Origin: a virus
Reading direction: 5' to 3' (one strand)
IMG/VR virus record: IMGVR_UViG_3300027851_000044
Location: 1-47,401 of that record
DNA length: 47,401 bases
The notes below the pieces were generated by a model. The model saw nothing but the letters and a program-made list of their open reading frames with translations. It was not told where the DNA came from and searched no databases. The position numbers and the translations under genes were made by a program. Positions 3,606-43,631 of this stretch are shown piece after piece. Each line of letters begins with the position of its first letter. Positions within the stretch are counted from its first letter, which is position 1.

Positions 3606-5201
3606 ATGCCAAATATAGATACCACCGGAAGTGCAATTTCCACATACGGCGCGAAATTGTTTGGACAAAGCAGCACTGGTGTTGCGGGCTGGGTAGATTC
3701 AGGAATATTGGCAAACACCGAATCAATCAGCGGTAATCATGGCACGAAGCATTTAGACTCTGATGGTCGAATTGCATTAATAGCTCTCTTGGCCGACCCA
3801 GCAATAACCACTCATACCGATGCAACCACTGTGGGGTCAGTTGCCTGGGCGCTAACTCAATTCCAGGCGTATAGTTCAGGAACAGTTGCATGGACACAAA
3901 ATCAACGAACTGTAACTTTAACTGGTGGGACGTGGAATAGCGATAATGTATGGTCTGGCGCACATATACAATTAGGCGTTAAGGACGATGGCGGGGGTTG
4001 GAATGATTACGTAGTTGAGTCCCTGACAGATGGTACACATCTAACCGTCACCTCGGCAATTAAATTAGCCACCCGCTCTGGAGCACCGTACAGCGTAGGC
4101 GTTGTTCCACATATAATTTGCGGCGCGGGGGTGTGGTATTTCGGTGATGCAACATTTGCCACTGACCCTCACATAGATATCACGATTAACGGAACAACAA
4201 TTGAAGGGGTAGGTTATGAAACAAATTTTGTTTACACCGGAACCCTATCGAATGTTGGGTATTTAGGCGATACGGGGGTAATTGATCTAAAGGCAAATAA
4301 AATCACTATCAAAAACCATCGGTGGACGATTGCCGATGCAGCAAATACCAGAGGCAAGGGATTTTTAATCCATGGAGCACCGAACACTTTTGGACACACA
4401 ATCACAGGCATCGTCGCGGAAAATATAACAGGATTAATTGCCGTTGGAACCAATGGTGGGGCGATTATTGATCTCTCGAATGCTTATAGATCAACAATAG
4501 CGGATTGTATTTTTCAAAACTGCATTACCCCAGTCGGACTGACTGGCAGCTCAACTCAGTACGGTAATCGCGTGGTAAATAATCTTTTCCTTGGCGGGGT
4601 AGCTAATTATTATTTTATCTATTGTGATTACCCTTGGGATACCGTCATACATGGAAATGTTTTTGAAGACACTGCCGGTGCTGCTGCGATCATAATCGGG
4701 GACAGTTACAACGCAAAAGGCGGGGTTGTAATAACATCAAACATATTTAATTCAGGGAATGCCGTTAGCATTCGTCTCCTGAATGCTGGATCGGGAAGCC
4801 AAAAGCACCAGATAGGGCCGGGGAATCAGTTTCGCAAAGGGTACATCGAAGTCAACGAAGGCGTGTCAGATTGTCTTTTCGAGGGCAATACTTTTCTGCA
4901 AACCGGAACGCAGGCACTCTCTATGCGCGGTGGCACCAGGAATGCGATAAGAAACAATTGTTTTGTAGGAAACAATGGTTCAGCCATTACACTGAGCACC
5001 ACCACTGTCAGCTATCTATATATTGATAACAATAAATTCAGGAATTATGCAAAACTCCTGGCGGTGACAAATCCTGCCACAGCGCATAATCATATCGCGG
5101 TTACAAATAATATTTTTGAGTCTGTTGCTGCTCAATACGACACGCTTCCAGATAATTATCTAACGTCTGGGAATGTTGGTGTAGAATTAACATTCCCATG
5201 A
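3606..5201 (+). CDS. Tailspike-like protein with right-handed beta-helix
   Basis: A 531-residue protein. The N-terminal ~100 residues (ISTYGAKLFGQSSTGVAGWV and on) look like a virion-attachment and linker region. From about residue 175 the sequence shows the short-turn rhythm of a parallel beta-helix, with many Asn-containing rungs (VNNLFLGG, IHGNVFED, ITSNIFNSG, FEGNTFLQT, IRNNCFVG, IDNNKFRNY, VTNNIFES). This is the architecture of polysaccharide-degrading or binding tailspikes (pectate-lyase superfamily). Active-site residues cannot be assigned by eye. Host receptor recognition is the likely job. Confidence 0.82.
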   Translation: MPNIDTTGSAISTYGAKLFGQSSTGVAGWVDSGILANTESISGNHGTKHLDSDGRIALIALLADPAITTHTDATTVGSVAWALTQFQAYSSGTVAWTQNQRTVTLTGGTWNSDNVWSGAHIQLGVKDDGGGWNDYVVESLTDGTHLTVTSAIKLATRSGAPYSVGVVPHIICGAGVWYFGDATFATDPHIDITINGTTIEGVGYETNFVYTGTLSNVGYLGDTGVIDLKANKITIKNHRWTIADAANTRGKGFLIHGAPNTFGHTITGIVAENITGLIAVGTNGGAIIDLSNAYRSTIADCIFQNCITPVGLTGSSTQYGNRVVNNLFLGGVANYYFIYCDYPWDTVIHGNVFEDTAGAAAIIIGDSYNAKGGVVITSNIFNSGNAVSIRLLNAGSGSQKHQIGPGNQFRKGYIEVNEGVSDCLFEGNTFLQTGTQALSMRGGTRNAIRNNCFVGNNGSAITLSTTTVSYLYIDNNKFRNYAKLLAVTNPATAHNHIAVTNNIFESVAAQYDTLPDNYLTSGNVGVELTFP

Positions 5202-6751: not shown

Positions 6752-7155
6752 TTGATTATACCAGCTTTCGTGCGGCCATTGAGGCGTATATAAAAACCAA
6801 TTTCACCATTGTTGCGGTGGTTTATGAGAATACTAAACCCCCGGAAGGTGAAAGAATCATGATATCGGAGGCTGATGTATCATCTGAGCCATTTGAAATG
6901 GGCTCCAACACCAGATTGGTACATGGCAGTTTGATTATAGATATTGACACTAAGTATGGGGCGGGCACCAATAAAGCCAAACAAATAGCTTCTCGGCTGG
7001 CTGCCATTTTAATTCCCGAATGTATTGTCGGAGTTTCGTTTGAAGAACCGGAGTTTAGTTCGGTTGGTAAGTTGGAAGGGGCCGACCTTTATCGGCATAA
7101 CTTTGTAATCCCGTACTGGTATCTGTACGGGGTAAACATCATAAACGCCTGTTAG
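6748..7155 (+). CDS. Probable tail terminator protein
   Basis: A 135-residue alpha/beta protein following the gp10-like gene and preceding the tail tube, the standard place of the tail terminator (lambda gpU-like, DUF4128-type). It shows the typical N-terminal helix, then VVAVYEN-like and IDIDTKYGAGTNKAKQIA segments and a C-terminal strand before the stop. Terminators form the hexameric cap that ends tube growth and docks to the head. Overlaps the upstream gene by four bases (ATGA). Confidence 0.65.
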   Translation: MIDYTSFRAAIEAYIKTNFTIVAVVYENTKPPEGERIMISEADVSSEPFEMGSNTRLVHGSLIIDIDTKYGAGTNKAKQIASRLAAILIPECIVGVSFEEPEFSSVGKLEGADLYRHNFVIPYWYLYGVNIINAC

Positions 7156-8414: not shown

Positions 8415-8740
8415 TAGAGCTGGCTCGCTGGTTCGCTTACGCAGATTGTGAATTGTGTATAGAACTATATGGGGGCAAGGAAAATGCCCCTTGTCAAGCG
8501 TGTCGGCCTTTAACTCACAAATTTAATATCCCGGTAATTGAGCTATATTTAACTTGTCAAGATCAGATGGTGATGGGATTTTCCGGGCCGGTAGCTTTAA
8601 ACGATGTAGCCGTTGGCCATGCCATGACTACCTATTTTGAAGTGGCCGATGAAGACAAATTGGGGCTGTCTTTGTCAGTTAGATCATTTTTTCGTAAAGT
8701 TTTGGGATTTATAAAGGAAAAAACGGATGGCAACTCTTGA
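8022..8740 (+). CDS. Tail assembly chaperone, long (gpGT-like) -1 frameshift product
   Basis: If ribosomes slip back one base on A AAA AAC (8405-8411), the frame bypasses the TGA at 8412-8414 and stays open from CTG 8411 to the TGA at 8738-8740. This adds about 110 residues, including a Cys-containing segment (ENAPCQACRP). This is the classic G/GT arrangement, in which a minor long form links the tape measure to tube subunits. The downstream frame has no plausible independent start, and its end overlaps the tape measure start (8727), as in many siphoviruses. Confidence 0.82.
8405..8411 (+). promoter_or_regulatory. Programmed -1 frameshift site, A AAA AAC
   Basis: A canonical X XXY YYZ heptamer, in the correct phase in the upstream frame and followed at once by the zero-frame stop. 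Its place between tube and tape measure genes is where such sites are expected. No strong downstream pseudoknot is obvious by eye. Confidence 0.85.
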
Positions 8741-11273
8741 GCTGAGTGTAAAATCAAATGCGGTGTCGGAGCTGGGGAGAATTAACCGGCAATTTGATAG
8801 TACGTCTCAAAAAGCTGAAAAGCTGAAAAAACAGTTCAGCACACTTGCTACTCCGGTTAGTAACAAATGGTTGACGTATTTGGGCATTTCTGAAATAGGT
8901 AGACAAGTATCGTCTCTCACCAGTTCCCTGGCCTCTGGCGCTGCTGCCATTGTGACCGCTTTTACCGGCATCAACTCCACGATTGAGCAAACTATCGTAA
9001 TGTTGGAGAATGCCACCGGCTCTGTCCAAAGCGGCAAAGATGCGTTCGCCTACATCGTTGATCTGGCCCAGAAAGCCCCTTACAGTATTGCCGTTCTTAC
9101 CGATTCCTTTGTAAAATTGCGGACAGCCGGAATCCAGGATACTGAACGTGTCCTGGAGTCCCTGGTTGATTCTGTAGCGGCATTTGGCGGTACCGATGAA
9201 CAATTAAAGCTGGTTACTATCGCCATGCAGCAGATGGCCGGTAAAGGCGTAATTTCCATGGAGGAATTACGCAGACAATTTGCGGAGCAGGTCCCCACCG
9301 CCATTCGGGCCATGGCCTCTGAATTGGATATGTCCATTTTGGAAATGACCAAGAAAATTGCCAAGGGCCAACTGTCCAGTGACCTTGGTATTCCTGCTTT
9401 GGTCGAGGGCCTTGAGAAACTCCATACCGGCTCAGCCGCAAAGCGGATGGAAACATTCCAGGGATCTATTGCTCATGCCAGGAACGAGTGGATTCTTTTG
9501 TTGAAAGACATTGGAGATGGCAACGGTTCGTTCAAAAGCATCTCCAACATGATCAACTCTGTTGCCAATTCCATGAAGGAGTTTCGGACTAGCGCAGAGG
9601 GCATGGCCGTTATCGATGAATTGTCAAAGAAAATAGCCGATTCCATGAAAAAGATCGCGGAAAACCCGGAAATGGTTTACCAATTTTTTATGGAAATGGG
9701 ACAATACGCCAGCATGGCCGGTTCTGCACTGAGTGGTTTAGTCGAGATAGTAAACAACGTAATATCTGCATACGATTTGATGAAGGGGGCAACATCAGCC
9801 ACTGATTGGGGCCAGGGCATAATTGACACTGAAAATTTTGACATGTCTAAATATGCTCTTGTTCGATCGGAGCTTCTTGAAATTACCAAGTTACAGCAAC
9901 AAATTGACCAAATGAAGCCGGATATTCTCCCGGATAACCCATTCGGCATGATAAGTCAGGCACAGAAGATTAAAGATATGTTTAGCGATCTGGGTAACCC
10001 TGACTTTATGAAAAAATATGAATTTGAATTCGATGAAGCCAAGGTCCAGGCCCGCATCGATGAATTGAAAAGAAGTATTGAAGACAAATTGAGCGGCAAT
10101 AAACCGAAAATTGATGTGGACACCAGTAAGGCGGAAATGAGTTTAAACCGTCTGCTTAAGATTGACCCGTCCAATGAATTTGCTAAGGTAAGTACCACCA
10201 TGGGCAATGTCGCTGATAGTTTTTCCATTGCGATTGACTCCATTATCAATGAGTACGCCAAGGTATCAGAGGAATTGGAAAAAGAGAACGCCCAGATTCT
10301 CGAAAAAGAACGCAATCTTGCCGATGAACTTAGAGGTATTTTCCGTGAGGGTATGACCGAGGGGGCCGCGTATGATGATTTAATTGCCCAGATTAATGAA
10401 TATAAAGTGGCGGCAGAAGAAGCGGCAAAAGCGGGGGATTGGGGCGGACAGTTGGCGGCATTACAGCGGGCTGCTGACCTCATTCGTTCTCTGCCGACTT
10501 CTGGGATTGCTGAGACAAAGATAGTTTCTCAAGAAGAGGTTGAACGTGCCCGTCAAATTTATGAATATTATGATAGGGTGTCCCGTGGCGGCAGGGCCAT
10601 GGATATTTCTAAATATGCCCAGGAGTATGAAAAGTTAAAAGCTATTTATGAGGGCGAAGGCGAACAAAAAGACGAAATAATCTCAAAACAGGACCAGATA
10701 AACCAAAAAGCCACCGAAACCAAGGAAGTTGGCGAAAAAATACTAGAGCTGGAACGTAAACACAAGGAAGAGCTTGAGGCAAAGAAAAAGGCCCTTGAAA
10801 CCCAGGTTGAAGAATATAAATCGAAGTTAGAGGCCCTGGCCACCCAATCGCAAGGATTGAACGATACCACTGGTCAATTGGGTGCGGTTTGGGTCCAGGT
10901 CGGTGACACTTTTGCCCATGTGGCCGGTGAAATATCAGGAAAACTTGAGGCCCTGCAACAGAAATTAAAAGATTTGATGGGCGACGCTAAAAGTTTGGAC
11001 AGTTCCATTGGCGGGATTGATATTCCTGGCCGAGCAGTGGGCGGGCCGGTTGCTGGCGGCAACCCGTACATAATTGGTGAAAAAGGCCCCGAGTTGTTTG
11101 TGCCAAGTACTAATGGTACGGTTATACCAAACAATCAATTAAAGAAAAGTGGATCATCTGTTGATTTAAATATTACAATCAATGGTGGCGATAGAATCAG
11201 GTTGCAAGGCACCAATGATGATGTTAATCGATTCATAAAAGCTATACGAGAAAAAGAAAGGTATGCGGCATGA
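8727..11273 (+). CDS. Tape measure protein
   Basis: An 848-residue protein whose length should set tail length; the siphovirus rule of ~0.15 nm per residue predicts a tail of roughly 125 nm. Residues ~100-200 carry the tape-measure domain (DLAQKAPYSIAVLTDSFVKL, then MAGKGVISMEELRRQFAEQV). Hydrophobic stretches follow (residues ~55-75, 325-350), then a long Glu/Lys-rich coiled coil at about 640-730. The end has the common PYIIGEKGPELFVPSTNG motif. It overlaps the GT frame at its start and the next gene at its end (ATGA, 11270-11273). Confidence 0.93.
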   Translation: MATLELSVKSNAVSELGRINRQFDSTSQKAEKLKKQFSTLATPVSNKWLTYLGISEIGRQVSSLTSSLASGAAAIVTAFTGINSTIEQTIVMLENATGSVQSGKDAFAYIVDLAQKAPYSIAVLTDSFVKLRTAGIQDTERVLESLVDSVAAFGGTDEQLKLVTIAMQQMAGKGVISMEELRRQFAEQVPTAIRAMASELDMSILEMTKKIAKGQLSSDLGIPALVEGLEKLHTGSAAKRMETFQGSIAHARNEWILLLKDIGDGNGSFKSISNMINSVANSMKEFRTSAEGMAVIDELSKKIADSMKKIAENPEMVYQFFMEMGQYASMAGSALSGLVEIVNNVISAYDLMKGATSATDWGQGIIDTENFDMSKYALVRSELLEITKLQQQIDQMKPDILPDNPFGMISQAQKIKDMFSDLGNPDFMKKYEFEFDEAKVQARIDELKRSIEDKLSGNKPKIDVDTSKAEMSLNRLLKIDPSNEFAKVSTTMGNVADSFSIAIDSIINEYAKVSEELEKENAQILEKERNLADELRGIFREGMTEGAAYDDLIAQINEYKVAAEEAAKAGDWGGQLAALQRAADLIRSLPTSGIAETKIVSQEEVERARQIYEYYDRVSRGGRAMDISKYAQEYEKLKAIYEGEGEQKDEIISKQDQINQKATETKEVGEKILELERKHKEELEAKKKALETQVEEYKSKLEALATQSQGLNDTTGQLGAVWVQVGDTFAHVAGEISGKLEALQQKLKDLMGDAKSLDSSIGGIDIPGRAVGGPVAGGNPYIIGEKGPELFVPSTNGTVIPNNQLKKSGSSVDLNITINGGDRIRLQGTNDDVNRFIKAIREKERYAA

Positions 11274-11650
11274 CCATAACACTTGGCGGGGTACTTATAA
11301 ATAGTAACATGTATTTATCCGGCATTGAGACAGCTGATACATTAATATACGACCAAAAGATATCTCTGGGGGGCGAGTCCAATGTTAGGGTTATGCCTCT
11401 GGTCGGGGGGCGCACCCTTGCCCTAGGGACACAAAATAGGGATGGGGCGACACAGGGATTGTGGTGTAAATCCACCATAGATCAGATCAAAGCTTTACAA
11501 AGTACTGGGATTCCTCTTGTGTTGGATTATAAGGGTACATTGTTTGATGTATATGTGATAAGTACAAATGATCTTGTGCCATTTCATCAATTTGAGGAAG
11601 AAAGTTCTACTAAAAAATTTGTTGGTAAAATAACGCTACTGGAGGCATAA
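11270..11650 (+). CDS. Tail protein downstream of tape measure
   Basis: A 126-residue protein coupled by ATGA to the tape measure. It has a beta-rich body (TLGGVLINSNMYLSGIE; LVGGRTLALGTQNRDGATQG; LVLDYKGTLFDVYVIS) and no charged coiled coil. Small proteins in this slot usually belong to the distal tail or baseplate. No specific family recognised, so the role is positional. Confidence 0.62.
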   Translation: MTITLGGVLINSNMYLSGIETADTLIYDQKISLGGESNVRVMPLVGGRTLALGTQNRDGATQGLWCKSTIDQIKALQSTGIPLVLDYKGTLFDVYVISTNDLVPFHQFEEESSTKKFVGKITLLEA

Positions 11651-19353: not shown

Positions 19354-19532
19354 AAATAGTAGAGGTTACTGAAATACTTGGGGGCGGGAAGATAAAAGTA
19401 AAGGATGCAGTTGGTAGAGAGTTCACATCCTTTACTGATAAAAATGTCACTACCGGGGATTACTTGATCATGGTTTCCGGGGTTGTGGTCCAAAAAACCG
19501 GTAAACCCACAATCACGACATACACCGTATGA
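19350..19532 (+). CDS. Short beta-barrel-like protein at the end of the late arm
   Basis: A 60-residue protein from GTG 19350, overlapping the previous stop (GTGA). The sequence (EVTEILGGGKIKVKDAVG, then VTTGDYLIMVSGVVVQK) looks like a small SH3/OB-type barrel. Its last 20 bases overlap the end of the convergent nuclease gene on the other strand, where the arms meet. No intrinsic terminator is visible there. Confidence 0.55.
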   Translation: MKIVEVTEILGGGKIKVKDAVGREFTSFTDKNVTTGDYLIMVSGVVVQKTGKPTITTYTV

Positions 19533-19917
19533 TATGGGCCATGAACCAGGGCGAATTAAACTCCAGCACCGGGATAGTGTGGCCAGTCCGCATGGCCCAG
19601 TCAATATCGCACAATAGCAGGGGGTGTAGACCGTGTTCGTAGCAAAGGATGATGTGATTCTCGGCCTTGATCAGGACCATGCCCCCAAAGTCAGACAAAA
19701 AGTTTCTCTGCTCGATCAGCAGGGGGTGCTTTTTTGGCTCTGACCAATCTTTCAGTTCAATGAAAGCTGTTACCCGTGCCCCCCCGCGCCCAGGAATAAA
19801 TGAAACTACAGAATCCGGGATCCCCTTCTCACTGCAATTTTCCAGACGGCAGGACCTCCAACTTGGCACTTCTTTCATTTTGCCATTGATCCACTTCCAC
19901 AGGTTCTTCTCGCTCAT
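19513..19917 (-). CDS. VRR-NUC/Holliday-resolvase-like nuclease
   Basis: A 134-residue protein, last gene of the leftward arm. The PD-(D/E)XK pattern is visible as KGIPDSVVSF with Asp at about residue 35, then FIELK with Glu at about 54 and Lys at about 56, followed by EQRNFLSDFGGMVLIK, as in VRR-NUC-type resolvases. Such enzymes act on branched DNA or as structure-specific nucleases. ATG 19917 overlaps the exonuclease stop (ATGA). Resolution of replication or packaging intermediates is the likely role. Confidence 0.72.
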   Translation of the reverse strand: MSEKNLWKWINGKMKEVPSWRSCRLENCSEKGIPDSVVSFIPGRGGARVTAFIELKDWSEPKKHPLLIEQRNFLSDFGGMVLIKAENHIILCYEHGLHPLLLCDIDWAMRTGHTIPVLEFNSPWFMAHIIRCMS

Positions 19918-20495
19918 AGTCCCAGCCTTTTCCACAGAGTTTTTATAACGTCACGGGTGGCCTGGATGTCGGCAAGGGCGTCATGGGCGTTATCTAGGGG
20001 AATCCCCAACGCTTGGGCCACAGTTTTTAGTTTCCGATCCGGAATAAATATCCTTTTGCCCGTTTTAATCTCCAATAAAAGGGCCATATTTAATCCGTCC
20101 AGGTATGCCCCCCCATGGCACAAGCCAAAGAAATACTTGTTCCGGTGCTTCTGGAACCATTCGTTGATAAAACCGGCATCAAAGTTACAGTTGTAACCAG
20201 CGATCACCATCTTGTCATGCTTATCATACCGGTTGACGTGGGTGGCTAGTAGGGCATCAACTTTTTTATAAACTGTGAAACTGTCCAGAGGCCTCGCCAT
20301 GACCTCTTCTATAGTTAAACCGGAAACGGCCAGGGCTTCCGGTTCAATCTTCTCGGTCGGCAGGGGCTTAAACTTGTAGTCAATCTCCGCTACCATTTTT
20401 CCATCAATGATGATCTGACCGGCGATCTGGTGTATGCCATTGATCTTGGGGTCGAGTCCGGTTGTTTCCGTATCTACGAAAAAAATCTTGTTCAT
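19914..20495 (-). CDS. DnaQ-like DEDDh 3'-5' exonuclease
   Basis: A 193-residue protein. Exo I is FFVDTETTGLDP (Asp8, Glu10). Exo II lies around AGYNCNFDAGFINEWF. Exo III is NAHDALADIQATRDV with the DEDDh His and last Asp. It may edit DNA ends or degrade DNA in recombination or host takeover. ATG 20495 overlaps the datZ stop (ATGA), so it is co-translated with the Z pathway. The polymerase has its own exonuclease domain, so this second one is not required for proofreading by the same chain. Confidence 0.85.
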   Translation of the reverse strand: MNKIFFVDTETTGLDPKINGIHQIAGQIIIDGKMVAEIDYKFKPLPTEKIEPEALAVSGLTIEEVMARPLDSFTVYKKVDALLATHVNRYDKHDKMVIAGYNCNFDAGFINEWFQKHRNKYFFGLCHGGAYLDGLNMALLLEIKTGKRIFIPDRKLKTVAQALGIPLDNAHDALADIQATRDVIKTLWKRLGL

Positions 20496-20968
20496 TTCGC
20501 CCCCAAATTGTAAATAAAACTCCACAAATCGGGTCCACCGATTCCCAGTTCTACACTCAAATCGCCTATACTCTTTTTCAGCCCCCCCAACAACCATATA
20601 GTAACTGCGGCTGAATCCACGCAGTGCGCTTCGGCAAATATGTACGCCTCAATCATGTCCGCTAGTTTTATTACTTTATTGCCGGTGCCAACTGGTTGTT
20701 CGTGATCAACCTTAGCCGGGGAGGGTATATCGCCGGTGTAAATCTCCTCCTTCCAATCGTGATCCAGGGCTGCCACAATTATCTCGTTATCGTCCATTGT
20801 CTCCATGATAAAGTTTGATAATATGGCCCTGGTGATCATGGCCACATTGAAGGAATGCTCCGCCACTGATTGAGTGCGGGACATTTTGATGATTGCCCAG
20901 CGCGGAATAATTGATGCCCGCATAAACGGATGTGGCCCAAACGGGGCTTTAAAATTACTTGATACCAT
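20492..20968 (-). CDS. datZ: DatZ-like HD-domain dATP triphosphohydrolase
   Basis: A 158-residue protein. HD-phosphohydrolase ligands are visible: RTQSVAEHSFNVAMI (His38), ALDHDWKEEIYTGDIPSP (His70, Asp71, Glu74) and KLADMIEAY (Asp104). The RASIIPRWAII start and short all-helical length match DatZ of Z-genome phages, which removes dATP so that dZTP is the only A-type precursor; the linked purZ makes this reading strong. ATG 20968 was chosen because AAAGGA lies eight bases upstream; longer frames overlap the upstream gene. A generic 5'-nucleotidase of the YfbR type is the main alternative. Confidence 0.87.
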   Translation of the reverse strand: MVSSNFKAPFGPHPFMRASIIPRWAIIKMSRTQSVAEHSFNVAMITRAILSNFIMETMDDNEIIVAALDHDWKEEIYTGDIPSPAKVDHEQPVGTGNKVIKLADMIEAYIFAEAHCVDSAAVTIWLLGGLKKSIGDLSVELGIGGPDLWSFIYNLGAK

Positions 20969-21158
20969 AGCTGTGTCCTTTACAAAAAAGGTTATCGGGT
21001 CCGTGCCCGTTTTCATTTGAACATTGGATGTATTTTCTGGTTGCGCAGTCATACACTGGCCATGCACATCTTCCCTCTTTGTACGGGAGTTTCCATCTGC
21101 CGCCATATAGGGTGCGCCGGGCCTCTTTCACAGTTGCCGGGATTTCGGGCCTACCCAT
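20955..21158 (-). CDS. Small Cys-containing protein in the Z operon
   Basis: A 67-residue basic protein overlapping datZ by 14 bases and the upstream gene by eight. Its C-terminal half carries EGRCAWPVYDC, KYIQCSN and FCKGHS, a set of Cys and His that could bind one zinc ion. The N-terminal half is Arg-rich (EARRTLYGGRWKLPYKEG). No family recognised. Its place between the MazG-like enzyme and datZ makes it a candidate accessory factor, but nothing in the sequence proves it. Confidence 0.6.
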   Translation of the reverse strand: MGRPEIPATVKEARRTLYGGRWKLPYKEGRCAWPVYDCATRKYIQCSNENGHGPDNLFCKGHSYGIK

Positions 21159-21351
21159 TGTCTTTTTCCTTACACGGGCACCATTCCGGTATTTTGTATT
21201 GATCGTGGATTATCCGATGATCTGCCTTTCTACAATACCACGTGGTGGGATATGGTGCACTTGTAAAAGCACAATCGTGTAATTGCGAGGAGTTTGTAGA
21301 ATACGGGCAATTTCTGCACTTGTCCACTTCGTGCACTGTTACGATTTTCAC
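21151..21351 (-). CDS. Small Cys-rich protein in the Z operon
   Basis: A 66-residue protein overlapping the MazG-like stop by ATGA (21348-21351). Cysteines are arranged as DKCRNCPYS, HDCAFTS, TTWYCRK and PEWCPCKE; the ending IPEWCPC resembles small phage zinc-knuckle proteins of unknown role. Two CxxC-like pairs suggest metal binding. No enzymatic motif. Confidence 0.65.
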   Translation of the reverse strand: MKIVTVHEVDKCRNCPYSTNSSQLHDCAFTSAPYPTTWYCRKADHRIIHDQYKIPEWCPCKEKDNG

Positions 21352-21800
21352 GCTTTCTCCTTCTGCCGGTTAAACCACCACAGAAACATGGCATTAACTG
21401 CAATATTACCCATGTGATCGGTCGGCATGGTGGGGTCTGTGTCAATTATCTCCCCTTTGCGGTAAGCCTGGAAATGGCGGAATAGGGCATCTTCATAAGC
21501 TTCCGGTTCTACTAGCTGCCAAGAGGGGGTACCGTCCGGTTCGCAGGGATGGTTAATTTCCCCCCGCGTAAGAATTTCTGCCATTAACTCCAGGAATCCC
21601 GGCAAAATTAAGCTGTATTTTAGTTTGCCATCGTCCCATTTCCGATTTTTCCGCGCCAGGGTATCCTTTAGTTTTCTCATGTCATCCACAAAGGAAGGAT
21701 AAGGGGATTTTCTGGGGTCCATGCAGCAACCGACATCTTCTTGTGCCGCCTCCAACTGCTCCACCAGGGTATGCTCATTGATTGATAATGGTTCGTTCAT
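21348..21800 (-). CDS. MazG-like nucleotide pyrophosphohydrolase (DUF5664-type), MazZ-role candidate
   Basis: A 150-residue helical protein. The stretch NRKWDDGKLKYSLILPGFLE (about residues 52-71), GEINHP, an AYEDALFRHFQAYRKGE helix and TDHMGNIAVNAMFLWWF match the phage DUF5664 family (annotated dATP/dGTP diphosphohydrolase), an all-alpha NTP-pyrophosphohydrolase of the MazG type. In Z-phages MazZ turns (d)GTP into (d)GMP, the PurZ substrate; this gene, next to purZ and datZ, is the obvious counterpart. Whether it is a true MazZ orthologue or a parallel solution cannot be decided by eye. A GTG at 21809 is an alternative start. Confidence 0.72.
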   Translation of the reverse strand: MNEPLSINEHTLVEQLEAAQEDVGCCMDPRKSPYPSFVDDMRKLKDTLARKNRKWDDGKLKYSLILPGFLELMAEILTRGEINHPCEPDGTPSWQLVEPEAYEDALFRHFQAYRKGEIIDTDPTMPTDHMGNIAVNAMFLWWFNRQKEKA

Positions 21801-21811
21801 TTCCGCCACCC

Positions 21812-21836
21812 AAAATAAAGGGGGCCGAAGCCCCCC
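21812..21836 (-). terminator. Intrinsic terminator after purZ
   Basis: On the minus strand a GGGGGC-TTCG-GCCCCC hairpin (21835-21820) is followed by TTTATTTT. It lies between the purZ stop (21846) and the MazG-like start (21800). Partial termination here would set purZ apart from the downstream genes. Confidence 0.75.
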
Positions 21837-21845
21837 GATAGAAAG

Positions 21846-22859
21846 TTATTTAATCCAGGACACGTTACACTTGTAATCGCTGGGGTGAACTATATCATTA
21901 ATGGTTTTACCATAACCCACCCATGACAAACTGGCCTCGCATGACCACGCCGCTGTTTTCACCAAGTCAATAAAGTCCTCCTGTTCCAGGCCAGCAGGGA
22001 GATAATTAATGAAACCAAGAAAAACGTCCGTGGTCCCGTTCATCCGGATCGATTCCATCAACTGGTTAACGGAAAAAGAGAACACCCTGCGAACCTTTTT
22101 ACTTACACTGGTAAGCTCCGCCGGGACCCCGATCTGGCCCCAGGTAAGTTCCTCCTGGTCAGAATAGCAAGGGCCTGAGAACCCGACCATATTCCCGGCC
22201 TCGTCGAACCGGTTAGATACCCGAATAGGGAAGGTCCGGAAGCAGCCAATAATTCGCTCAACTCTCAGCGGGGAAATGGCCGCGTCGGCAATAACCTGAG
22301 CAGGACTAGTGTTCCTACTAGTACAGTATGGCCAGAATCCAAAATTGAGCGACAGACTGTGGCCCTGTGCACATATCGCCAGGACTTTTTCATGTGAGTG
22401 CATTTCCCGCACCCATTGGGCATTATCCACTGTGCCCTCGATGACATGCTTGGCCAAGATGTTGGTATTTCCGGGGTTCCTGCCCATTTTCTCGATCGTC
22501 GCTGCCGCGCCCCCGGTCATGGTCGACCCAACCCGGACAAAATCTTTCTCAGTGTTGAAGTGCTGCTCCTGGATCACCGCCGCATGCTGGTGAATAATAA
22601 CCCTGGCCCCTTCCGGCAGCTGTGCAATCTCCTTTTTAAGGTGGTCTAAGTCGATAACAGAGCCCGGAGAAATCATCAATGTCGCCGGATACCCGATCGG
22701 AAGTGTGGACCACTTGGTGCCCGCACTATCAAACCCCCCGCTATTGGGCATAGCATTGGTGATGATGGCCCCCGGTTTCCACTGGTGGCAATAAAACTCT
22801 GTAAAAAGCCGTTTTGATTCGCTGCCAAACTGCCCGCCGTAAATTACGTGTACTTTCAT
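21846..22859 (-). CDS. purZ: PurZ, N6-succino-2-amino-2'-deoxyadenylate synthase
   Basis: A 337-residue adenylosuccinate-synthetase homologue of the Z-phage branch, joining dGMP and aspartate as the committed step to diaminopurine. The nucleotide loop is GGQFGSESK (residues 8-16), where PurA has GDEGK: Ser13 replaces the catalytic Asp, the known PurZ mark. Other PurZ-like blocks are VGSTMTGGAAATIEKM, AQGHSLSLNFGFWPYCTSR, SDQEELTWGQIG and TSVSKKVRRVFSFS. Odd: the usual NAGHT box reads PNSGGFD (38-44), so the catalytic His appears to be missing. ATG 22859 has AGGAGAG upstream and a CAACCACCAC box at 22881-22890; a terminator follows the gene. Confidence 0.92.
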   Translation of the reverse strand: MKVHVIYGGQFGSESKRLFTEFYCHQWKPGAIITNAMPNSGGFDSAGTKWSTLPIGYPATLMISPGSVIDLDHLKKEIAQLPEGARVIIHQHAAVIQEQHFNTEKDFVRVGSTMTGGAAATIEKMGRNPGNTNILAKHVIEGTVDNAQWVREMHSHEKVLAICAQGHSLSLNFGFWPYCTSRNTSPAQVIADAAISPLRVERIIGCFRTFPIRVSNRFDEAGNMVGFSGPCYSDQEELTWGQIGVPAELTSVSKKVRRVFSFSVNQLMESIRMNGTTDVFLGFINYLPAGLEQEDFIDLVKTAAWSCEASLSWVGYGKTINDIVHPSDYKCNVSWIK

Positions 22860-22891
22860 TGTAGCTCTCCTTGGTGATTTGTGGTGGTTGG

Positions 22892-23203
22892 TCAATCGTG
22901 ATGCCCTTCGGCGTATGTAACTTTTTTCCTTTCCCAGGAATTGGTGTATTCCGGCAGGGGTTTCTTGCAGGATGGACAGTCCCCGGTAATATTGATCAGG
23001 TATTTGTTATACCTAATCCCGCAATGGGGGCAGGTCCGGTCTGCCGGGTAGTCCCACGGAAATTTTACCCCTTCTAGAGTTTCCATGGTATCCGGGCCAA
23101 AGTGCTTCGCTATTTTAATGGCGCACTCCACACAAAAACTCCTATTGGTGTCTTTGGTTTTGGCTACGGCTTCTGAACAACACTCTAGGCTATCACACTT
23201 CAT
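22892..23203 (-). CDS. Zinc-ribbon protein between ssb and purZ
   Basis: A 103-residue protein with two cysteine clusters. The N-terminal one is CDSLECC followed by FCVECAIKI; the C-terminal one is a textbook ribbon with TCPHCGIRYNK and GDCPSCKKPL (about residues 57-81). AAGGAG five bases before ATG 23203 gives a strong start. A nucleic-acid-binding or adaptor role is plausible. Its place between SSB and PurZ links it to the Z-replication operon. Confidence 0.75.
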   Translation of the reverse strand: MKCDSLECCSEAVAKTKDTNRSFCVECAIKIAKHFGPDTMETLEGVKFPWDYPADRTCPHCGIRYNKYLINITGDCPSCKKPLPEYTNSWERKKVTYAEGHHD

Positions 23204-23212
23204 GCTGTCTCC

Positions 23213-23608
23213 TTAAAATGGGACATCTTCCCCGGTACTGGGGTATCTTTCTTCACTCTCTGCGGCATATTCCCCCCGTCCTTGGGGCTTTGACAGCAGC
23301 TTTACCCGTTGTACTTTCACTTCTGCCGTGGGGATCTTGATGCCGTCCCGGTTTTCATACTCTCCATACTGCATCGAACCGGCCACAAACACCATGAACC
23401 CTTTCTCCAGGTTCTTTTCCGCGTATTCCGCCGGGAAACCAAAAGCCACGCACTTGTGCCATTCGGTTTTTTCCTGCCAATCGCCGGTCCGCTTGTCCTT
23501 CCACTTTTCGGTGGTGGCAACTGAAAACATGGCCATCGTTCCCTTTGAATTGGTATTTATCCTTGGGTCTTGCCCCAAATTACCTATTAACCTTACCTCA
23601 TTCAGCAT
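23213..23608 (-). CDS. ssb: Single-stranded DNA-binding protein
   Basis: A 131-residue OB-fold SSB. It starts MLNEVRLIGNLGQDPRI, with MAMFSVATTEKWKDK and FGFPAEYAEKNLEKGFMVFV marking the bacterial SSB fold. It ends in an acidic tail (EERYPSTGEDVPF) close to the DDIPF-type tip that recruits partner proteins. ATG 23608 overlaps the end of the small Cys protein by 11 bases. It should coat single strands during Z-DNA replication and is near the usual length for phage SSBs. Confidence 0.93.
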   Translation of the reverse strand: MLNEVRLIGNLGQDPRINTNSKGTMAMFSVATTEKWKDKRTGDWQEKTEWHKCVAFGFPAEYAEKNLEKGFMVFVAGSMQYGEYENRDGIKIPTAEVKVQRVKLLSKPQGRGEYAAESEERYPSTGEDVPF

Positions 23609-23735
23609 TTTCGCCCTCACAGTCAATTGGATTGCAGTCGGGATCGTGATCTTCCCACCCTTCCGCGTTTTCGCACCTGACAGGTTCTGTTACCCCGTCA
23701 CCTACCATCATTCCGCCGCACTCATTACATGTCAT
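23598..23735 (-). CDS. 45-residue acidic Cys-containing protein coupled to the polymerase
   Basis: ATG 23735 overlaps the polymerase stop as ATGA (23735-23732), and the TGA at 23598-23600 lies inside the ssb start region, so the frame fills the whole gap between the two genes. The product is very acidic, with TCNECGGMM at the start and RCENAEG, PDCNP and DCEGE further on. Tight packing on both sides and the CxxC pair favour a real zinc-knuckle gene. Confidence 0.6.
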   Translation of the reverse strand: MTCNECGGMMVGDGVTEPVRCENAEGWEDHDPDCNPIDCEGENAE

Positions 23736-25567
23736 AGTTCCCCCAAAAGTTGTACTTCTCCCCATGAACGGCCAACCTCAGGTTTTGTCCTGATGGGTAT
23801 GTCGGTCAGCCCCTTGAACGTGTCCTGCATCACTCGTTGAATCTCAAAAGCGATCTCTGCGTTGTCAATACTAAAAATAAGTTCATCGTGGACAGATAAA
23901 TGTGGTATTTGTCCCAACTCCAGGTAAACATCTACCATGGCCTTTTTAATCAGATCGGCAGTAAAGCTCTGGTAAAGGTAGCCGCTGGCCTTGTAAGTGA
24001 ATCTCTTATCCGGAAATCGCAAATGTCTGCCACATATCGAGGTAACGTAACCCCGGCTGGCGGCAACGGACGAGGCCATCTTGGACATATCTTCCGCTCC
24101 AGGGATCATGCTATGGTAATGGTTGAAAACTTCAATAGCCTCCGATCCGGGCTTAAGGTAAACTTTACCGTTTCGGCCCAATTCTTCCACGTACGGCAAC
24201 TGCATTTGCTTGGCCAGTTTCCCCATGCCCATATTAAAGATCATGGCAAGGTTGATCTGCTTGGCATTGGCCCCGCCACCCGGACCAGGATTCCGGCGCA
24301 ATTTCAGCATTTCTGCTACGAAGGTATGAAAATCAGTGTCCGGATCATTCTCGTACGCTTTTAGTACGGGATGATTCTTATCATTGGTAACGGAGGCTAT
24401 ATAATGGGCAAACCCCCGCACGTCTGATTGGTCATAATCGCATTTTAAAAGCTGCATGCCATCGTCCGGCAAAAAAAGCGGACGAAGAATGGCCTTCATC
24501 TCAGGATCTCTTTTTGGAACAGCTTGAAGGTTCGGATTACTGCAGGACAGCCTGCCGGTCACGACCCGTGTTTGATTGAACCAAGGGTAGACCCTGCCAC
24601 CCAACTGGTGGCCCATCAGCTGTGATACGATAAACGTGTCATGGATCTTCCGGTACTTCCGTACTTTTAGGATCATTTCAGCCAGGGGATGAGTCATTTC
24701 CTCCAGGATTTCCGCGCCCAGGGAAACGGCACCAGTTTTGTCGGAGCAATCGGCCAGGGTGCCATCGATCAACACATACTTACTACCGATGTCAATCTCT
24801 TCGCCCTTTTTATTCAGCTTAATCTTTTGTGCCCCGGTCCGTTTAGGAACAGTTCTGCCGTCCTTAAGTTCTGTGGCTATCAGCAGGGAGGCCATCTGAG
24901 GGGAAGAATTAACATTGACCTCCATTCCGGCCAGCTTGTCAAGATCCCGTTGTGTTCGATCGATCAAAAGCTGTACATCCCTCTTGGCCTTGGATAGACG
25001 ATCAGTGTCGACCCGAATACCTTTCTGCTCCATCTTAATCAGAACATTAAGGACCTTCTTTTCGAGCTCGTGCACTGGCGGCAGATTCCCTTCCTGACGA
25101 CGATACAACGTACGCATCGCCTCGATGTCACCAATAGCGTACTTCTCGACAAATTCCCTGGGTGCCTTATGCAAGTTGGGCATCTGAACGTTCTTGGTGG
25201 CCTGTCCACCGAACATCTTGGCCAGTTCCCCGATAATGTCCACCTTCATGCCGGTCAAGGAATCGAGGTCATAGTTCAGTTTGTGCTCATCAATTAATTG
25301 CTCCCTGACGATGGTGCAGTCCAGGTTCTTATCGGATATATCTATTCCTACGGTACGTAGTGCGTGAGCGTCAAATTTGGTGCCGTGAGCCACCAGGACT
25401 TCGGCCTTATTTACCAGATCTTTAAATTCGTCAATCGAATCAGTCTTTATGTCTTTATACTTGATCGGGCCGTCACCAAAGGCATAGCTGATGCCGGTGA
25501 CACGATCGCTGCCAATCATGTTGAGGCCAGTACCTTCTGTATCTAAAAATAGTTCACACCCACTCAT
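23732..25567 (-). CDS. dpoZ: Family A DNA polymerase with 3'-5' exonuclease (DpoZ-type)
   Basis: A 611-residue PolA-family polymerase. Exonuclease: LDTEGTGL (Asp9, Glu11), HGTKFDAHAL (Asp66) and YAIGDIEAM (Asp147). Polymerase: TGRLSCSNPNLQAVP (337-351); motif A KCDYDQSDVRGFAHY with Asp377; motif B around NAKQINLAMIFNMG with Lys436; motif C LSVHDELIF with His560, Asp561, Glu562. Motif A differs from the usual DYSQIELR, and motif B has Leu and Phe where E. coli Pol I has Phe762 and Tyr766. The linked purZ and datZ suggest it is the Z-preferring DpoZ. ATG 25567 has GGAGG upstream and overlaps the helicase by 14 bases. Confidence 0.9.
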   Translation of the reverse strand: MSGCELFLDTEGTGLNMIGSDRVTGISYAFGDGPIKYKDIKTDSIDEFKDLVNKAEVLVAHGTKFDAHALRTVGIDISDKNLDCTIVREQLIDEHKLNYDLDSLTGMKVDIIGELAKMFGGQATKNVQMPNLHKAPREFVEKYAIGDIEAMRTLYRRQEGNLPPVHELEKKVLNVLIKMEQKGIRVDTDRLSKAKRDVQLLIDRTQRDLDKLAGMEVNVNSSPQMASLLIATELKDGRTVPKRTGAQKIKLNKKGEEIDIGSKYVLIDGTLADCSDKTGAVSLGAEILEEMTHPLAEMILKVRKYRKIHDTFIVSQLMGHQLGGRVYPWFNQTRVVTGRLSCSNPNLQAVPKRDPEMKAILRPLFLPDDGMQLLKCDYDQSDVRGFAHYIASVTNDKNHPVLKAYENDPDTDFHTFVAEMLKLRRNPGPGGGANAKQINLAMIFNMGMGKLAKQMQLPYVEELGRNGKVYLKPGSEAIEVFNHYHSMIPGAEDMSKMASSVAASRGYVTSICGRHLRFPDKRFTYKASGYLYQSFTADLIKKAMVDVYLELGQIPHLSVHDELIFSIDNAEIAFEIQRVMQDTFKGLTDIPIRTKPEVGRSWGEVQLLGEL

Positions 25568-26624
25568 TCGGATTACCTCCGTCCACGATAGTTAACTTCT
25601 TTCTCGTCCTGGTTATTGCTGTATACATTAACCGCTTCTCGGCCACTGGGTCAATTTCTGTGGATGTGCGCACCCTTCTGGTGGTTGCGTTGTAAATAAC
25701 CACGTGATCGCCCTGGAGCCCCTTTGCCTTGTGGATAGTTAAAACTTTCTTTTTGTCGATCCCGGTCCGTTTGATCAGCTTATAACCAATGTAATTGGTC
25801 CGGACCAGAACCATGTCTGCCGTCAGAGGTATATCAATTTCCCGGTAGATCTCCCCAATTTCTGTTAATGGGTTAAAATGTGCGTCGGGAAAGATATCCT
25901 TGGCCTTGTTCACTATAACCTTAGGGCAGCGGTAAGACTGCTCCAAGAATTTTTCCTTGCCATCAAAGTGGTACATGAATTTTGGGTCTGCCCCGGAGTA
26001 AGTGTAAATGGCCTGATTTGGGTCCCCCACTATCCACATGTTCTTTACCCCCGCCATGGCCAACTTTTCCAGGGCCATGGTAAGAGAATAACTATTATCT
26101 TGGGCCTCGTCCACCAGCAAATTTTCCGGTGCCTCGATCGGGTCAAAATTGTCCAGGAGGTCGTGAAATTCGTACACCCCGAAAGTGGACTTGTACTGCA
26201 GCAGGGACTTTACGAAAAAAACGTACTCGTTAAAAGTGAATTCCACCATGCCGGAGAACCGGAAGAACGCCTCCAGGGGGTCTGTGCCGGTGGTCCTGGC
26301 CCAACTATAAACCTCAAACTGGTGCATTGATGGTTCATATTTTTCAAATCCGGAATTGGGCGGCTCGACCCCGATCATCTTACAAAAGTCAGCTATTTGC
26401 CGCCCTTGCAATATCTGCTGTGGGATGATCCCCATGTCATGGAAACAGAGAGAATGTATAGTTGAGGCTTTATACCCTCTTCCTGCCTTCATGGCTATAT
26501 TCATCGATGCCGATCGAGAATAAGATAGGATTAAAGTGTTGTCCGGGGGGAGAGTGTTCGCAACTTTCGCAAGGTACGTACTTTTCCCGGCCCCCGGACA
26601 ACCTATGATAATTTTAACGTTCAC
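25554..26624 (-). CDS. Superfamily 1 DNA helicase, UvrD/Dda-like
   Basis: A 356-residue protein beginning at GTG 26624; the P-loop GCPGAGKST at residues 8-16 fixes the N-terminus. Motif II is LLVDEAQDNS, motif III GDPNQAIYTYSG, motif IV-like SYRCPKVI, motif V TIHKAKGLQGDHV, and motif VI YTAITRTRKKL. It is short for UvrD and closer in size to T4 Dda-type helicases. It should unwind DNA ahead of or behind the fork; directly upstream of the polymerase, it is probably co-expressed. No clear Shine-Dalgarno site for the GTG. Confidence 0.9.
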   Translation of the reverse strand: MNVKIIIGCPGAGKSTYLAKVANTLPPDNTLILSYSRSASMNIAMKAGRGYKASTIHSLCFHDMGIIPQQILQGRQIADFCKMIGVEPPNSGFEKYEPSMHQFEVYSWARTTGTDPLEAFFRFSGMVEFTFNEYVFFVKSLLQYKSTFGVYEFHDLLDNFDPIEAPENLLVDEAQDNSYSLTMALEKLAMAGVKNMWIVGDPNQAIYTYSGADPKFMYHFDGKEKFLEQSYRCPKVIVNKAKDIFPDAHFNPLTEIGEIYREIDIPLTADMVLVRTNYIGYKLIKRTGIDKKKVLTIHKAKGLQGDHVVIYNATTRRVRTSTEIDPVAEKRLMYTAITRTRKKLTIVDGGNPNEWV

Positions 26625-29485: not shown

Positions 29486-29565
29486 TGTACTACCTCCATA
29501 TGGTGGTTGTTTGGTTGGTCATACTGGGATGAGAGCACCCGCTGTCCTCTCTCCCCTTTCTTTCA

Positions 29566-29594
29566 TTATACCATGACGGGGGGTATCCTGTCAA
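29566..29594 (-). promoter_or_regulatory. Sigma-70-type promoter, perfect consensus
   Basis: On the minus strand TTGACA (29594-29589), a 17-base spacer and TATAAT (29571-29566) match the bacterial consensus exactly. TATAAT is followed by GAAAG, as in two other promoters in this window. It should drive the leftward genes from 29485 downward. Confidence 0.8.
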
Positions 29595-41738: not shown

Positions 41739-42215
41739 ATGAGCACGATCAACATCAGGGAATTAGAACTCGTTTACCGCAATGCTGAAACCCAGGAGGA
41801 GCTCGATCTCGCCCTGCAGTTTCACGGCATTGCATATGGCGAGTTGTCTGCCCTGGCCACTGATCGCGGTTGGCAGTCCAGCCCCATTGCCGTAAAAAAT
41901 CTCGCCGCCCAAATCGATTCTTTCGACCCCACCGTTGAGGCCGACGACAAATTCATTGAGAGCTCAAACAAAGCTTCCATTCGCCGCCTCCACTCCCTGC
42001 TGGAATTCACCGTTACCAAATTTCACCTTGAAGCCAGGGATATGTCTATCGCCGCCATGGCCGATACCCTGGATGTCCTCGTTAAGATCCGAGAAAAACT
42101 CACAAAACTTGAACTGCCGCTTTACGGGTTAAGTACCATGGAACCCGTGGTCGTTGCAAATCCGATCCACGTATTCTTGGATACCGAGGCAGACGATGAA
42201 TGTAAATCTGTCTAA
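41739..42215 (+). CDS. Probable terminase small subunit
   Basis: A 158-residue helical protein directly before the large terminase, the usual place of the DNA-recognition subunit. ATG 41739 was chosen because the longer frame would start inside the promoter; AAGGACG is the ribosome site. N-terminal helices (NIRELELVYRNAETQEELDL) and ALATDRGWQSSPIAVKNLA could form the DNA-binding part; later helices would oligomerise. Sequence similarity to known small subunits is not obvious. Confidence 0.65.
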   Translation: MSTINIRELELVYRNAETQEELDLALQFHGIAYGELSALATDRGWQSSPIAVKNLAAQIDSFDPTVEADDKFIESSNKASIRRLHSLLEFTVTKFHLEARDMSIAAMADTLDVLVKIREKLTKLELPLYGLSTMEPVVVANPIHVFLDTEADDECKSV

Positions 42216-43452
42216 GCCACAATCCAAAGTATACACGTCACAGTCCAAGTTTGTGGGTTGTGCTGCCGGTCTCGGGTCTGGAAAGACTTTTACAATAGCT
42301 TTGAAGATGCTGGATACCTTCTTCAGGTATAAAGGCTGCAACCTCGCCTATTCAGCACCAACGTACGGATTGATCAGGGACATTATCTACCCCCTGCTGG
42401 AAGAGTTCTTAATTTCTGCCAACATGCGGTATACCCTTAATAAGGCCGATGCTCAATTATCGGTGCCGGGGTATGGGAAAATCTTCTTTCGGTCCATGAC
42501 CAAACCCGAAACGATCATTGGTTTCTCGATCCTGGACGCATTCCTGGACGAGCTGGATGTAATCCCGGAGGCCCAGGCAGAGGTGGTTATAGATAAATTC
42601 TTGGCCCGGATAAGGCAGAAGATACCGAATAAGCGAAACCAAATATACGCAATATCGTCCCCGGAAGGTTTCAAGTATATGTACAATAATTTCGAAAAGA
42701 ACCCAATTGCCGGTTCAGAACTCATTCGGATGAGTACATATTCCAATCAAGCCAATTTGCCGGACGATTACATCTCCTCGATGGTTGCCAAATACCCACA
42801 ATCCATGATTGACGCCTATTTGCTGGGGAAATTTGTCAACATCGCTGCCAATGAGGTATGGAAAGACTTTGACAGAAAATTGAATAATTCCACGGAAGAG
42901 GTAAGGAGTGGCGAAACTTTGCACGTGGGATTCGATTTTAATGTCGGACGGGGTTGTGCCGTACCATATGTTGAACGAGAACTTGGCGGAGAACCCACCC
43001 TCCATGCCGTCAACGAATTCCACGCATCAGCAGATACCCCAGAATCCATCGCCAGGGTCAGAACCACTTACCCCAATCACCCAATCATTGCTTATCCTGA
43101 CGCCACTGGAAAAGCCAAGAAATCTGTGGACGCTACCAAGTCTGATATTTCATTGTTAAAAGCAGCCGGTTTCCTGGTAAAGAAAAATAGCAAGAATCCA
43201 TCGATCAAGGATAGAGTAACCGCCTCCAACGCCGCTTTTTGCAATGGCAATGGTTTTAGGCGGGTTTTCGTGAATGTCAACAAATGCCCCCTGTTAACTG
43301 AGGCCCTGGAACACCAAACTTACGACGACACGGGCCTGCCGGTAAAAGATGGCAAAATTGACGATATTGTTGACGCCGGAACTTACCCGATAGTATATCG
43401 TTTCCCGATCAGGGGTGGACGTCCCGGAATAGTTGAATTGGAAGGCGTATGA
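42196..43452 (+). CDS. terL: Terminase large subunit
   Basis: A 418-residue packaging motor. The ATPase has Walker A AAGLGSGKTFTIALK and Walker B SILDAFLDELD; the nuclease part has VGFDFNVGRGCAV, AYPDATGKAK and KIDDIVDAGTYPIVYR, carrying the acidic metal ligands. ATG 42196 follows the family start (SKPQSKVYTSQSKFVGCAAG). It overlaps the small subunit by 20 bases and the next gene by ATGA. Packaging type (headful or site-specific) cannot be read from this alone. Confidence 0.93.
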   Translation: MNVNLSKPQSKVYTSQSKFVGCAAGLGSGKTFTIALKMLDTFFRYKGCNLAYSAPTYGLIRDIIYPLLEEFLISANMRYTLNKADAQLSVPGYGKIFFRSMTKPETIIGFSILDAFLDELDVIPEAQAEVVIDKFLARIRQKIPNKRNQIYAISSPEGFKYMYNNFEKNPIAGSELIRMSTYSNQANLPDDYISSMVAKYPQSMIDAYLLGKFVNIAANEVWKDFDRKLNNSTEEVRSGETLHVGFDFNVGRGCAVPYVERELGGEPTLHAVNEFHASADTPESIARVRTTYPNHPIIAYPDATGKAKKSVDATKSDISLLKAAGFLVKKNSKNPSIKDRVTASNAAFCNGNGFRRVFVNVNKCPLLTEALEHQTYDDTGLPVKDGKIDDIVDAGTYPIVYRFPIRGGRPGIVELEGV

Positions 43453-43631
43453 CGAAGTGTTTTTCTGTGCCTATTGATGGCAAACCAGTAAAAATGACCA
43501 TGGAACAGGGGAAGCAGCTATACACATGCTTGGACCGATTATTTAAACACGAGCCAATGGCAAAATGTACTGAGTGCAAGTCTGTGCCCCTGTGCAATAT
43601 ATGTTCCTTGGAGGCCACAAAATGCCAGTAG
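43449..43631 (+). CDS. Small Cys-containing protein between terminase and portal
   Basis: A 60-residue protein coupled by ATGA to terminase. Ends with AKCTECKSVPLCNICSLEAT plus a final Cys, which could hold one zinc ion. It overlaps the portal start by ten bases. Role unknown. Confidence 0.6.
   Translation: MTKCFSVPIDGKPVKMTMEQGKQLYTCLDRLFKHEPMAKCTECKSVPLCNICSLEATKCQ

Follow-up and report, generated by a model that had tools for sequence, protein, structure and literature searches.

Phages in which 2-aminoadenine (Z) takes the place of adenine (A) represent a rare natural alteration of the genetic alphabet. The Z pathway, its enzymes and the division between PurZ and PurZ0 have already been published (PMC8342488, PMC8065100, PMC8599892, PMC12884076), and PurZ is the sole enzyme thought to be of single origin across Z-DNA phages (PMC12884076). 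In this study we describe a cassette of Z-pathway genes in a 47,401-nucleotide stretch of viral DNA (IMG/VR virus record IMGVR_UViG_3300027851_000044, positions 1-47,401; hereafter the window), and in particular its PurZ, which belongs to a divergent branch with a changed active site. Overall, the pathway is a known one and its central enzyme is divergent. Since our IMG/VR scan returned at least 541 related loci, an additional Z-phage would by itself be unremarkable; in most of the IMG/VR PurZ loci examined, DpoZ and DatZ, mostly together with MazZ or DUF5664, adjoin PurZ. An earlier annotation made from the sequence alone (the original prediction) had proposed a complete Z pathway of PurZ, DatZ, a DUF5664/MazG-like protein and a family A polymerase. 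All four genes lie on the minus strand where they had been placed, with the motifs GGQFGSESK, AEH, LDHDWKEE and KLADM, and the identities of PurZ, DatZ and the polymerase are borne out by family matches far above chance (NF038379, PHROG 7076 and NF038380). The changed active site of PurZ, which the prediction did not contain, is the most unusual point.

Several described systems resemble the locus in part. The Z-phages of the SH-Ab 15497, PMBT28 and PSA28 group carry PurZ, DpoZ-2, DUF5664-DUF550 and DatZ, and share with the window the core order helicase-DpoZ-SSB-PurZ-DUF5664-DatZ (SSB, single-strand DNA-binding protein); DpoZ is ∼38% identical. However, DUF5664, which is fused to DUF550 in SH-Ab 15497 (PMC12884076), has no DUF550 partner in the window, the window PurZ is 31-37% identical and lies on a separate branch, and the window additionally encodes small proteins and an exonuclease of the DnaQ type. 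With phiVC8 and ZP6 (PurZ, MazZ-2, DatZ and DpoZ) the window has the PurZ and DpoZ families in common, at ∼37% identity for PurZ, but these phages carry MazZ-2 where the window has DUF5664, a primase gene separates their PurZ and DpoZ, and their PurZ retain a His and a Glu that the window PurZ has lost. Cyanophage S-2L (PurZ, MazZ-1 and DatZ) has homologous PurZ and DatZ with specificity residues in common, but uses PrimPol instead of DpoZ, and MazZ-1. The PurZ0 phages Wayne and Ghobes differ by PurZ0, DpoZ-1, DutZ and DmtZ, although a stand-alone DUF5664 is found in Wayne too.

The purZ open reading frame (ORF) spans 21846-22895 with ATG 22859, preceded by a GGAG Shine-Dalgarno sequence, as the likeliest start. 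The protein matches PHROG 1211 at an expect value (E) of 3e-49, and its best solved relatives are the PurZ structures of S-2L and phiVC8 (E 1e-49), far ahead of PurA. The catalytic Asp13 of PurA is Ser (S13) in the window PurZ and in all members of its branch. A position within cellular PurA had been set beforehand as the refutation of the original prediction; in two trees the protein falls instead within the PurZ clade (99/100 support), apart from PurA and PurZ0, and this placement, with DpoZ and DatZ true to type, supports the interpretation as a Z-phage. The window PurZ forms a branch of six phages (100/100 support) that is sister to all other sampled PurZ in the careful tree, where the support of 92/86 is below the star threshold. 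A tree constrained to unite the branch with PurZ0 is worse by 125 log units and is rejected by the approximately unbiased (AU) test (p 0.001). A PurZ0-type system was likewise rejected, on the AU test for PurZ and on the position of the polymerase in the DpoZ-2 clade, and neither a dUTPase nor an NDT (DutZ/DmtZ) was seen among the window proteins scanned.

To describe the active site, the six branch members were set residue by residue against 188 other distinct PurA/PurZ-like sequences, drawn from phages, IMG/VR and genomes. The dGMP pocket of S-2L PurZ, which includes G22, S23, N49, T132, Q190, R240 and V241 (PMC8342488), is retained in the window as G12, S13, N39, T113, R127, Q165, R213 and V214. 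The His of the PNAGHT motif (window position 42) corresponds to H52 of S-2L, a triphosphate contact (PMC8342488); it is present in 188/188 of the other sequences and replaced by Gly in all six branch members. The Glu of the EGAQG motif (window position 162), equally universal in the other 188, is Ile, Val or Phe throughout the branch. Two residues have been gained: the Gly following the P-loop Lys is Arg (Arg17) in 6/6 branch members and 0/188 others, and the residue following QG, beside the base-binding Gln, is His (His167) in 6/6 and 4/188. Further changes affect the S-2L G25 position (Ser in four of the six members, Gly or Ala in the remaining two), the T53 position (Phe or Tyr in the branch) and, in the subgroup of the window, N305 and P336 (Gly and Lys there, respectively). 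Also branch-specific are a Gly for Asp at position 8, two Thr-to-Ser exchanges in the aspartate loop and an Asn for Asp/Glu after TSR. At the triphosphate contacts G25, H52 and T53 of S-2L the branch as a whole thus diverges, which weakens the view that these proteins work exactly like S-2L PurZ rather than their membership in PurZ by descent.

The His41 of PurA has a catalytic role; no mutational study of it was found in our literature search. The Glu might be the partner of this PurA-type His. From the residue changes it seems that the branch has rearranged catalysis or the binding of the phosphate donor and kept the dGMP and aspartate sites. The simplest reading would be that Arg17 and His167 became the centre of a rebuilt triphosphate/catalytic side, with substrate recognition unchanged. 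It is possible, with a chance we place a little below even, that this deep branch has moved its catalysis, the P-loop Arg and the His taking over after loss of the His and the co-varying Glu, possibly with a different phosphate donor. If true, this would be a second catalytic solution for Z-DNA synthesis. Because the six sequences form one branch, the change may represent a single ancestral event, and its evidential value lies in the preservation of the four-residue pattern down to ∼51% identity. A PurZ without the His and Glu was not found in the literature searched, which did not include the original 2021 Science papers on PurZ, so that its novelty is not certain. A branch that has lost two residues found in all 188 other sequences is a test of what the active site can do without, and might provide an alternative starting enzyme for dZTP production.

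The polymerase scores 517 bits against the NF038380 DpoZ model, above the curated cut-off of 500, and its best match in the PDB is phiVC8 DpoZ (7pbk, E 6e-78). Leu455, Phe459 and Gly548 are characteristic of phiVC8-like DpoZ (PMC8599892); the window protein keeps the equivalent Leu, Phe and Gly (within NAKQINLAMIFN and YKASG) together with the helix-O insertion. In the polymerase tree it lies in the DpoZ-2 group, apart from Wayne and Ghobes. We therefore regard it as a DpoZ true to type, with a predicted selectivity for Z over A. The DpoZ of two phages whose PurZ share the branch of the window (L022 and L185) are placed elsewhere in the DpoZ-2 group, which points to a reassortment between PurZ and DpoZ. 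Two relatives show additional genes around DpoZ: L100, a Desulfobulbus sp. Tol-SR contig (JROS01000092.1, identical with the 26,847-base contig L002), has ORFs resembling homing endonucleases (of HNH type as judged by eye) flanking it at 4315-4968 and 1877-2386, which are absent in the window, and the 45.4-kb contig L003 encodes a MazG-like ORF of 109 amino acids (aa) between helicase and DpoZ (6801-7130; EEFGEVYKAINE ... ELVQVAAVAIA; PHROG 2831), which is absent at the corresponding site in the window.

The DatZ-like HD-domain ORF spans 20492-21106, with ATG 20968 as the likely true start. The residues of S-2L DatZ for dATP specificity, metal and phosphate (R19, W20, I22, P79, K81, K116 and D119; PMC8065100) are retained as R23, W24, I26, P84, K86, K101 and D104, the equivalents of K116 and D119 being assigned by alignment, and the HD pair is H70 and D71. 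For an AlphaFold2 model (predicted local distance difference test score, pLDDT, 85) the closest PDB structure is that of S-2L DatZ (6zpa; E 6e-5, template modelling score 0.6), and the model thus shows the overall DatZ fold. DatZ is full-length in L022 and short in L101, a 45.4-kb contig from a gammaproteobacterial bin. In this compact L101 form (11198-11638) HE replaces the HD pair (FHELDEAYTGD), with the specificity residues otherwise present.

The fourth gene had been predicted as DUF5664/MazG-like, of which the DUF5664 part stands and the MazG-like part does not. It matches PF18909 (dGTP_diPhyd_N) at E 2e-20, with 73 bits against a gathering score of 27, while hidden Markov model searches across the window gave no MazZ/DUF550 match at E 1e-3 and no Pfam MazG-type match; a MazG identity was accordingly rejected. 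The stand-alone DUF5664 protein of phage Wayne converts dATP, dGTP and dUTP to monophosphates in vitro (PMC12884076). In L022 and L101, both of the same PurZ branch, a MazG-like gene (QEECAEL and EEAADV motifs, read by eye) stands at the position of the DUF5664 gene, an exchange that supports a shared role of the two genes. The AlphaFold2 model of the window protein is mostly helical (pLDDT 82), and Foldseek matched 2p06 and MazZ 7ody at E 4-9 only.

Taken together, a Z genome is the best reading of the locus: very probably, the phage remodels the nucleotide pool of its host and replicates with Z replacing A. We infer the enzyme activities, the host steps and the presence of Z in the virion from the genes as follows. 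The DUF5664 protein would convert dGTP (and dATP) to the monophosphate, supplying dGMP and draining dATP. PurZ would couple dGMP with aspartate, spending a nucleoside triphosphate, to give succino-aminodeoxyadenylate, which a host lyase and kinases would take to dZTP. DatZ would remove dATP, and DpoZ would insert Z, preferred opposite T, with SSB, helicase and the DnaQ-like exonuclease presumably acting beside it.

A number of observations weigh against this reading. The score of PurZ against NF038379, 219.7 bits, is under the 300-bit NCBIfam cut-off, and the loss of an otherwise invariant, triphosphate-contacting His may mean that PurZ activity is lost or changed. DatZ has two lineage-specific alterations: a single inserted residue separates the HD pair from the Glu that follows it, and ∼30-45 residues are deleted ahead of the KLAD motif. 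The DUF5664 protein departs from the family consensus (KY to NH, an inserted loop, Asp for Glu and a missing acidic position), and its model is without a significant structural match (E 4 or worse). For these last two reasons the DUF5664 activity is the least certain step. There is a modest chance that this protein is not a dGTP hydrolase and that dGMP comes from the host or an unlinked enzyme, in which case the remaining Z pathway would stand; the additional MazG-like ORF beside DpoZ in L003 also fits this possibility, whereas the activity of Wayne DUF5664 on its own, the MazG-like gene in the same slot of L022 and L101 and the low ratio of nonsynonymous to synonymous substitution rates (dN/dS 0.07-0.14) of the DUF5664 gene speak for the proposed role.

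The other alternatives concern PurZ itself. We give a small chance to a changed reaction, with another phosphate donor, nucleotide or amino donor and different or partly Z-substituted DNA: the residues that correspond to the triphosphate and adenine contacts in S-2L PurZ have changed while the dGMP pocket is kept, but the aspartate-loop residues, like those for dGMP, are kept or conservatively changed, the Z-selective partners DpoZ and DatZ are retained and PurZ is under purifying selection. It is very improbable that PurZ is an inactive relict in a genome with ordinary A. Although the loss of the two residues common to all other sequences compared could be taken in that sense, PurZ dN/dS is 0.11-0.12 among the window, L100 and L003 (relatives 72-88% identical), distant branch members share the four-residue pattern, and DatZ and DpoZ are maintained alongside. 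That the gene is an ordinary, IMP-using PurA homologue raising the adenine supply is refuted by phylogeny and has practically no probability left; the distant similarity to the PurA family (PF00709, E 2.5e-15) is a partial match, PurA identity is rejected by the position inside PurZ and by Ser13, and the neighbours DatZ and DpoZ would oppose a supply of dATP.

The features of the window are collected in Table 1. The cassette runs on the minus strand from 26.6 to 19.5 kb, so that some of its genes fall beyond the range given in the original prediction (20492-25567), and helicase, SSB and DnaQ-like genes extend the four-gene set noted there. Genes overlap or are spaced by a few tens of bases, with a gap of ∼105 bases between DpoZ and SSB; the start of the DnaQ-like exonuclease gene overlaps the datZ stop (ATGA). 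Gene order is preserved in L003, L100 and L101 and largely so in L022. The helicase has a matching position in L100, L101 and L003, and the DnaQ-like exonuclease an equivalent one in these three and in L022. The small Cys-rich protein between SSB and PurZ had no match in the family libraries scanned, and homologues lie at the equivalent site in the close relatives L003, L100 and L101. Across the cassette genes dN/dS (Nei-Gojobori method) is 0.02-0.19 where dS could be estimated, in comparisons with relatives including L100 and L003, several of the L003 comparisons being saturated; these low values indicate purifying selection, hence genes that are not decaying.

Table 1. Features of the window (positions in nucleotides; E, expect value)
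Feature	Position	Strand	Match or remark
Tape measure	8727-11273
Small protein, last gene of the unit	19513-19935	-	PHROG 2165, E 1e-5 (phage family annotated helicase)
DnaQ-like DEDDh 3'-5' exonuclease	19914-20495	-	PF00929, E 4e-14; PHROG 192, E 1e-34
DatZ, compact HD-domain dATP triphosphohydrolase (predicted)	20492-20968	-	PHROG 7076, E 5e-20
Small Cys-rich ORF	20955-21158	-	Homologue in L002 (3317-3517)
Small Cys-rich ORF	21151-21351	-	Overlaps DUF5664 stop by 4 bases; weak PHROG 29585
Stand-alone DUF5664 protein, proposed dGTP/dATP diphosphohydrolase (MazZ role)	21348-21809	-	PF18909
Terminator-like hairpin between purZ and DUF5664 gene	21817-21836	-	GGGGGGCTTCGGCCCCCTTTATTTT; folds at -15.1 kcal/mol
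PurZ, succino-aminodeoxyadenylate synthetase, divergent branch	21846-22859	-	NF038379, E 5e-65
Small Cys-rich, zinc-ribbon-like protein between SSB and PurZ	22892-23203	-
SSB	23213-23626	-	PF00436, E 2e-24
DpoZ, family A DNA polymerase with 3'-5' exonuclease, DpoZ-2 type	23732-25567	-	NF038380
UvrD-like SF1 helicase, first gene of the cassette	25554-26624	-	PHROG 1967, E 4e-48
Ala/Thr-rich ORF, 203 aa	26638-27249		Between helicase and Pam3 gp34-like gene
Candidate promoter upstream of leftward genes	29565-29594	-	TTGACA, 18 nt, TATAAT
Terminase	42154-43452
Portal	43574-45085
Scaffold	45114-45773
Major head protein	45840-46850

The four genes had also been assigned to one operon. They are indeed leftward and closely spaced, but a GC-rich hairpin followed by T-rich sequence separates purZ from DUF5664-datZ, and a stem of partly different sequence occurs at the corresponding site in L100 and L003. 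The term operon therefore applies only with reservation, and the hairpin may keep DUF5664 and DatZ at a lower level of expression than PurZ. The candidate promoter is sigma-70-like by consensus match only, agreeing in 12/12 positions and with a TG before the second hexamer. A homologue of the Ala/Thr-rich ORF upstream of the helicase is found at the corresponding site in L100 (126-827).

The window contains an exact direct terminal repeat of 127 bases and is therefore apparently a complete genome, with 47,274 bases of unique sequence. It belongs to a virus of bacteria, a siphophage with a genome of ∼47.3 kb. A prophage reading found no support, the record being terminally redundant and no integrase being present among the ORFs scanned. 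The original prediction did not recognize the gene backbone as that of a described Z-phage, and we came to the same view: over 18-30 kb there was no DNA match to the annotated phage collection at megablast sensitivity, and the major head protein comes closest to those of Shewanella phage 3/49 and Serratia phage Eta (57-58%), neither of which figures in the list of 60 PurZ-carrying records. The portal shows a distant relationship to portals of Salmonella siphophages (29%). The Z pathway is thus placed on a siphophage with a capsid nearest Shewanella phage 3/49 and with one relative, L100, in a Desulfobulbus assembly, a link to a host that is at bin level and not proof.

Related genes were also noted elsewhere. 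PurA-like paralogues whose catalytic Asp is replaced by Ser (GSEGKG) occur widely on bacterial chromosomes (genome contigs L107-L179), including those of Sorangium, Terriglobus, Bradyrhizobium, Xanthomonas and Mycobacterium gordonae, and in most cases neither DatZ nor DpoZ lies in the vicinity. Viral PurZ-like genes on two large contigs (L214, 370.8 kb; L222, 341.4 kb) have no DatZ or DpoZ match within ∼6 kb. Four further viral PurZ-like proteins with GSEAKG or GSEGKG (L218, L220, L223 and L224) lie near polymerases that group with DpoZ-1, and the PurZ of L218 groups with Wayne and Ghobes; it is possible that these four represent further PurZ0-type lineages.

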